NCBI GenBank assembly: GCA_029706075.1
Contig: JAINUG010000087.1
Location: 992,001-1,056,000, forward strand
DNA: 64,000 nt
Direction: 5' to 3'
DNA from: Aldrovandia affinis
Lineage: Eukaryota > Chordata > Actinopteri > Notacanthiformes > Halosauridae
Part shown: positions 32,401 to 35,400 of the stretch, piece by piece
Position numbering within the stretch: position 1 is the first letter of the stretch
How the letters are laid out: each line of letters opens with the position of its first letter
The notes under the pieces: generated by a model
What the model saw: only the letters and a program-made list of their open reading frames with translations
Database searches by the model: none
Told to the model about the DNA's origin: nothing
Program-made: the position numbers and the translations under genes

Positions 32401-35400
32401 CCCATCAAAATCCGCCCTGGAGAATGCCCCCACTGTGTTCATTCAAGATCAGTACAGGGGATAGAGGGGACTCAAGTGGGATCATTTTGTTCAGTTTTTC
32501 ATGAGCTCATTAATGTACTTTCCTCCATCTGAAAACACTTTTAGAAAGTCCTACGTTCCTCTTGACAATAAACTATTTGGTCGTTGATTCAAAGAGAAAG
32601 CTTGATTGAATCCTCAGCATTCTGCCCAGTGGCGAGTTCATTGACATTGTTTGAATTGGACCAGTGTAGTTACAGTCCCGTGGAAGGTGTCAAAGCATTG
32701 TGTGTTGGAGGCCTTGTCAGTGCGTGAGTCAAGATATGTAGTGCTAACAGGAAAAAGACAAATAATAAAAATAACTTTCTGTAAATTTTTGTAATTTTTA
32801 TTATTAGGCAAAAGCTCTGGTCCTTATACCAGATGTGAACATTATTTACTCAGGAACTTCGGTGCATTTGGTAAATGGCACATTTGAAAGATATGTGATA
32901 TTGAAAGAAGAGCGTCTAACGTTTGTGAACGTTTAGATGTAACTTTATTGCATCATTGCAATAATAATATATTGCCACTTGACCTGAACAGAGATTTTTT
33001 AAAGTATATGACCAAAAGTTTGTCTCTCTGTTTGAGTAACTGGCTTTTTTTGTTGAGGTTATTATGCGCAATGGGGACGGGCAGTATTAGTAGATACAGA
33101 GAACCCACCCAAAATACGAAATTGAAGTCGATCAAGTACCACTGCGGCTGGTATAATAACTTCCTTTCACCTGCTGTGTCCTTGTAGGAGACGTTGCTGT
33201 GAAGATGTTGAACGTTACTGCCCCCACACCCCAGCAGCTACAAGCCTTCAAGAATGAAGTGGGAGTTCTGAAGGTAAACCATAAAACCTCAAGAATGAAG
33301 TGGGAGTTCTGAGGTAAACCATAAAACCATAAAACCTCATAATGAAGTCGGAGTTCTGAGGTGAACCATAAAAGCATAAAAACCTCATAATCATGCACTC
33401 CATGCACTTTGTTAAGGCGTGAAGGGAAATGTTACATTTCATCCTAGAACACCTTTAGCTGCAGCAACTGTATCAGTACGTAGTCTTTAATAAGCCAGTC
33501 CTGGTCCTGAAGATTCACAGGGGGTTTCATAGATGCCTTCTGCCAGCAGCATTAAGACCGAATCGGTGTGTCATTTGCAAACGGACGTAGGGGGTAAACT
33601 TCCTTCCGTTGCTTATGAATGTTAACATACCAAATGCATTTTATGTAAAAAAACTAACATAAAAACCATACATTTTACAATTACTATTTTTTTTTTAATC
33701 AAGCTAACAACTTGATTATTCTATGCAAAATAAATATGATCCTCCAAATCAGCAAATGTTATTTTAATTGAACACAATACAGGGTATTACATTTACCACA
33801 ATATTTAGGACTTTTTGTTCACAGAAAAAAAACAACCTAGGGATCTACAGTGGAAAGTATGGATTTAAATTGACTTCTTGGGTCTGTGGTGATGAAGGCA
33901 TTTACGCATCTAATCTTTGTATAGATGTAGCATTTTATCCTGAAATCTTTCCTGGGAGTCCTGGGATCAATGTTCAATTTGTAAAAAAAAACCAACAACA
34001 CACGGGCAAGCAATGAGCACAGACTATGTGCAGCGTTACCACAACATCACCACAATGTTGGTGTCTTCCTCCCCCTTCAGAAAAACGCGGCATGTGAACA
34101 TCCTGCTCTTCATGGGCTACACCACCAAGCCCCAGCTGGCCATCGTCACGCAGTGGTGCGAGGGCTCCAGCCTCTACCACCACCTCCACATCATCGAGAC
34201 CAAGTTCGAGATGATCAAGCTCATCGACATCGCCCGCCAGACCGCCCAAGGGATGGAGTGAGTGAGCCAGCCAGCCAGCCCCTCGTTGGTCGCCCTCTTA
34301 GCAGCGAGGCAGAATGCACCGTCTGATAGTTACTGCAGCCAGGGCCGTAGCCAGCAGTCGACAATTACAGAGGTCATGAAAATGTACACTAAAAAGGAGT
34401 ATCTTTTGGCCTGTCATCACTGTCGATGAATGAATAGCTAACGTTAGCCTAAATTAGCCTATCACCACTGTGATGTCAGAATAAAAAGTGGTTTGTGTAA
34501 CAGTCCGCTAGACAGAGACAGCGGCATAGTGACTACGCAAAACTACACACAAAGTAGCTATCGATAGATGATCTCTGGAGATGAATAGCATTCATCTGGT
34601 TATAAGACAAGCAGTCAACTTTTTATAATGTGAGAGATCTCTACACCTACATCATGCTTCGCTTGGCCTCCCGCTGTGCAGCAAAGTTGTCCCAAGTGTC
34701 ACTGTGTCATCTTTGCTGAGCAAAGGTTTTGTAGTGACGACCAGATCCACCTACTCGGGACGGGTCCACTTCACCACCACACACAGAAGTAATGACGAAA
34801 TGTTTGTTATACCGAAGTAAAGTCATTTTATGTACAGTAGTTCAGCACTTTTATTCAGTATTACACTGAATCAGTATGTAAAAAAAAAAAAACTCAGATT
34901 CATGACCTCGGTGTCCTCAATGGTAGATACGGCCATGACTGCAGCAGGGAATCACAATGACGGCACCGCTGTGACTCTGCATTACTGCTGTTCTGCACAC
35001 CATTACATTTTATTTTATTTTATTTTTGTAATGTTAAATAAGTGCACCAGTCTTCATTAAATTCCGCGTCACTGTCAGTGGTGATGCGCACAAATGCAGG
35101 TGCAAATGGCAGTGCTGTGCAGATAAAATTGAGTTGCACTAAAGTTTGCATCAGTTGAAACTTGACTATTAGGGCTTCATCCCATGACTATTTGTTGGGG
35201 TGTAACTTCATTTCGGCTGTCGTAATGACGTATTCCAGTGTAAGCTGTGTGTTTTGGCCTGTGTTAAAAGGAAATAAAAGCTCATTTGAAAATGCAGAGC
35301 AGCCGTGCAGATATTAAAAATTGATAATTATGCAGCTGAATTGACCCCTGGCAAGATACAGTAATCTATACTTGTACAGTGTCCTTGTGTCCCAGGGACA

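Follow-up and report, generated by a model that had tools for sequence, protein, structure and literature searches.

Does the braf gene of Aldrovandia affinis truly lose its reading frame between exons 12 and 13, as the assembled sequence has it, or does the assembly carry a base that the animal does not? The + strand of the window (the whole 64,000-nt stretch analysed, C2433:992001-1056000) carries a braf gene, with exon 1 at ~14317-14478 and exons 2-18 within 19399-41867. Judged by its vertebrate BRAF exon structure and its predicted protein, this gene is the braf orthologue. Its parts are given below, with a slash marking each splice junction.

14317-14478, + strand: braf exon 1, from the start codon to PEE, with donor gtatgc and a tblastx match to a second braf copy
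19399-32373, + strand: braf exons 2-11 (10 exons with their introns), in frame, from tblastn and the exon model
33188-33273, + strand: braf exon 12 as assembled, 86 nt, ending ctgaag/gtaaac, one base longer than the 85 nt of the second copy
34081-34257, + strand: braf exon 13, 177 nt, with its normal acceptor cccttcag/AAAAACG, from tblastn and the exon model
36090-41867, + strand: braf exons 14-18 (with introns), in frame, from tblastn and the exon model
38393-38395, + strand: first stop, in exon 16, if the 86-nt exon 12 is joined to exon 13

The end of exon 1 was our reading of the bases there, and the tblastx match extends 3 bases beyond it. Apart from exon 12, exons 2-18 were open in the expected frame and bounded by AG and GT, exon 18 ending at the stop; the exon 14 donor, gtatcc, scored low yet was identical in the second braf copy, and exon 17 (135 nt) was in frame. 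Compared with the human lengths of exons 2-17 (85 nt for exon 12), the exon lengths were the same except in exon 12 (+1) and in exons 3, 7 and 9, where the differences of 9, 9 and 3 nt are multiples of three. The tblastn pieces were 46-100% identical to human BRAF, and 64-97% in the kinase part, the lowest values belonging to pieces that extend past exon ends.

The earlier note had placed the fault in an exon 12 of 86 nt, and our exon model bore this out, since the exon ends ctgaag/gtaaac, exon 13 keeps its 177 nt, and joining the two breaks the frame at their junction. The extra base lies at 33271-33272, within a tandem-repeat context and outside any long homopolymer, which makes an origin by homopolymer error a poor fit. 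It was absent from the second braf copy and from both intronic copies of the array that overlies the donor; these read ctgag/gtaaac and ctgag/gtgaac, without the extra a, as had been reported.

33248-33391, + strand: three-copy tandem array over the exon 12 donor, with spacing of 41 and 47 nt; copies 2 and 3 are intronic and carry ctgag/gt

A true break at this junction would remove the R506-KTR-HV motif that is encoded there and that forms part of the RAF dimer interface (PMC11804575).

A search with exon 12 and the array through the 2576 contigs (1.22 Gb) of the assembly to which the window belongs gave, besides the window, a single further place, on contig C1446, at 84%. This place holds a second braf copy (~6.695-6.717 Mb, minus strand; L003-L006), and the picture drawn from the window alone has to be amended accordingly: the window gene is one of two. 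For exons 2-18 of the C1446 copy, tblastn found 16 and DNA alignment the 17th (exon 9), and tblastx found exon 1. The copy adjoins mrps33 and tmem178b exon 1, genes that neighbour human BRAF as well. Its exon 12 measures 85 nt and ends CTCAG/gtaaag. Its exon 4 is 4 nt shorter than that of the window copy (100 versus 104 nt) and its exon 16 is 2 nt shorter (130 versus 132 nt), each through a deletion in an otherwise conserved exon. Comparison of the two copies gave dS 0.53, dN 0.031 and dN/dS 0.058 over 692 codons, indicating that both are under strong constraint; the window copy differed from human at 16 residues where the C1446 copy agrees, and the C1446 copy at 9. A search with the kinase exons returned at least 128 matches (149 of 423 candidates scored), headed by the two braf copies; it also gave two other RAF genes, on C191 and C1803 (62-77%), one short 76% match on C1136, and weaker kinases. 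Codon-usage scoring of the stretches fetched from C1446 pointed to a few further exons, and positions 6587501-6834500 of that contig contained 5,000 N within 247 kb, representing either a gap or a withheld stretch.

Because both braf copies carried breaks, we measured the error rate of the assembly in control families. Of ten long window ORFs scanned against Pfam, two had reverse-transcriptase matches and eight had none, so these ten offered no other gene usable as a control. The RVT_1 matches lie at 4030-4914 (+ strand; below the family cut-off) and at 29588-30463 (− strand), the latter within braf intron 10.

In two control families from elsewhere in the assembly, the rate of apparent frame breaks was about 1 per 7 kb. 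The first family consisted of protocadherin variable exons, which are long single exons, counted from 150 Cadherin_2 matches (150 of 178 candidates scored). Their open frame fell below 700 aa in 34 of the first 127 rows and in 42 of all 150 matches listed, both the 700-aa cut and the limit of 127 rows, which excludes the majority of split halves and outlying genes, having been set after the table was seen. Intact exons among the 127 had open frames of 727-924 aa, and at 2.4 kb per exon the rate came to ~1 break per 7.7 kb. Large protocadherin clusters were found on C2011, C1765 and C1950, with about a quarter of the variable exons frame-broken. Reading eight of the 42 broken exons revealed 11 small frameshifts but no in-frame stop. 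Ten of the frameshifts were read as deletions and one as an insertion, with sizes of 1-2 nt modulo three; the events in L046 and L047 are less certain, these being only ~45% identical to their references. One of the eight, aligned as DNA with a near-identical intact neighbour, showed two 1-nt deletions, and two intact exons compared with each other showed no frameshift.

The second family gave 44 Tubulin_C matches, 32 of them with E below 1e-30; 29 of these 32 lay in open frames of at least 277 aa and the other three in frames of 193-221 aa. With the addition of two split genes on C1788 and C1900, which account for four rows, the set comprises 34 exons, five of which were broken, corresponding to ~1 break per 6.5 kb. 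Eight weak rows were dropped (C2267, C913, C335 twice, C1964, C1535 twice, and the second on C1435), and the C913 match, thus outside the 34, had five stops. The broken tubulin genes that we read were the two split ones among the five: L028 is an alpha-tubulin that is conserved apart from two frame breaks, and L029, from its sequence, looks like a decayed alpha-tubulin pseudogene. No frame break was found in nine kinase exons of the two other RAF genes, in the two mrps33 exons, or in tmem178b exon 1. The control rate predicts ~0.3 breaks in each braf copy; at 1 break per 7-7.5 kb, the 2.33 kb of the window copy would contain one or more with a probability of 0.27-0.28. Three breaks across the two copies are more than expected (P 0.025-0.03).

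Taken together, these results make it probable (roughly 0.86) that the extra base at 33271-33272 arose as a consensus error in the assembly, one of many similar breaks. Such an error would have added a single base amid tandem repeats in a braf gene under constraint, and the animal's own exon 12 would then most likely be 85 nt long and the gene whole. Like breaks were common in unrelated conserved genes of the assembly, and the broken genes were otherwise intact and free of nonsense changes in the protocadherins and in both braf copies, L029 being the exception. Real pseudogenes are expected to carry nonsense changes as well; the 11 frameshifts and absence of stops in the broken protocadherin exons form the pattern that consensus errors would give. 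Two dead braf genes in a vertebrate, with coding sequence so conserved, are hard to believe, whereas assembly errors in both copies are easy to believe. The assembly indel that the earlier note had preferred thus gains support from the control-family frameshifts and from the two breaks in the other braf copy.

Against an error stands the type of the window lesion: it is an insertion, and deletions account for 10 of the 11 control frameshifts and for both C1446 breaks. No homopolymer of at least 5 nt in the joined coding exons (19 in the window copy and 15 in the C1446 copy, some of them perhaps created by the joining itself) lay at a break site. The protocadherin clusters consist of tandem paralogues and may be assembled worse than braf, and some of the broken control genes may be genuine pseudogenes. 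If the control families are typical, conserved coding sequence in this assembly is broken about once per 7 kb, and any gene loss that it seems to show needs support from reads. Long-read assemblies are well known for small-indel errors that fragment genes (e.g. PMC12007338), and the likeness lies in isolated small indels that break the frames of conserved genes. That work concerned small genomes; the breaks of the present assembly occur outside long homopolymers as well.

A real frameshift allele or young lesion in the window copy, with function supplied by the other allele or the second braf copy, is unlikely in our view; were the base real, it would be remarkable for a vertebrate braf to have its kinase domain out of frame. 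The presence of a second braf gene means that loss of one copy could be tolerated, the insertion adjoins a tandem array, a setting in which real slippage takes place, and the lesion is unlike a homopolymer error and of a type rare among the control breaks (1 of 11). However, the C1446 copy is itself broken twice, and a real lesion in the window would leave no whole braf unless the C1446 breaks are errors, in which case the same cause covers the window copy. The lack of any other break in the window copy, and the high frequency with which the control families show similar ones, also speak against a real lesion.

The base might alternatively be real and bypassed by splicing. The earlier note saw no splice choice that could rescue the frame. 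We confirmed that read-through to the donor of array copy 2 meets TGA at 33310-33312, but the general statement was too strong, since a weak donor with its exon end at 33299 restores the frame.

33300-33305, + strand: weak cryptic donor gtggga in array copy 2, adding nine extra residues in frame

Our splice scan (GT or GC donors, AG acceptors, introns of at least 60 nt, and single-intron alternatives, with micro-exons outside its scope) counted 114 in-frame, stop-free combinations. The top one joined donor GAA/gtggga to the normal exon 13 acceptor, giving an exon 12 of 112 nt; among the best 15 of the 114, most of those below it used weaker acceptors cutting into exon 13, or weaker donors. From the sequence, read-through to 33299 is open only through the extra base, a TAA otherwise following just past the normal donor. 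On our own simple matrix, the cryptic donor scored 4.0, versus 7.1 for the normal donor just upstream, and because of this weak score we believe that it goes unused. The same hexamer occurs in array copy 1 (exon end 33258) and would have to be skipped, and the nine residues would enter directly before the KTRHV motif of the dimer interface (PMC11804575), where we expect little tolerance for an insert. Use of this donor is accordingly extremely improbable. More broadly, we consider it very unlikely that the lesions are real, with either both braf duplicates out of frame or exon 12 lengthened from the donor minisatellite by nine residues in the loop before the dimer-interface motif. Other routes were rejected by sequence reasoning: the next AG at the exon 12 acceptor lies 3 nt in and leaves the frameshift in place, exon skipping joins incompatible phases, and a ribosomal −1 frameshift at the A-rich junction would act in the wrong direction.

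It is just as hard to credit that the tandem array was mis-assembled, through a false extra copy or the merging of alleles with differing copy number, and that the extra base is a by-product. In its favour, copies 1 and 2 of the exon 12 array are 97% matched with ~2% indels over the 41-nt unit, but copy 3 has diverged to a 77% match with copy 2, as a genuine older array would, and a second array of the same layout occurs at exon 17.

39103-39448, + strand: second tandem array over the exon 17 donor, with a ~41-nt unit

A simple consensus error suffices without mis-assembly of the array, and the two are separable only by reads. An unprocessed braf pseudogene was rejected on the open state of the other exons, the presence of splice sites and the dN/dS of 0.058, which only a very recent loss would escape.

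Most units of the exon 17 array carry CACAGGTAAACTCC. It is curious that minisatellites seem to be seeded at splice donors; the two of 17 donors found inside arrays were not a significant excess by coverage (expected 0.59, P 0.12), and no array was seen at the exon 12 and exon 17 donors of the C1446 copy. A minisatellite that provides splice donors has been described in IFI6 (Turri et al. 1995, cited by PMC4526556), and braf exons 12 and 17 resemble it in having a repeat array at the exon end with units that could act as donors. In IFI6, downstream units are reported to be used and yield different isoforms, whereas in braf read-through to the copy-2 donor would meet a stop. Tandem duplication of an AGGT segment is also a known route to intron gain (Rogers model; PMC4974935). 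The duplicated braf units likewise carry AG/GT; in contrast to the model, the braf duplication occupies the 5′ end of an intron that is already there, and no new intron is needed or seen.

Another array, ~0.8 kb of CTACACCCTAACAACATCC-like units at 21599-22421, starts 37 nt past the end of braf exon 3. At the 3′ end of the gene, the last coding exon, at 41848-41867, passes a GTGAGC donor-like site after GGYG and runs to a close stop (ERQPA). Human BRAF has alternative ends at this place, and a downstream exon 19 of the window gene may exist.
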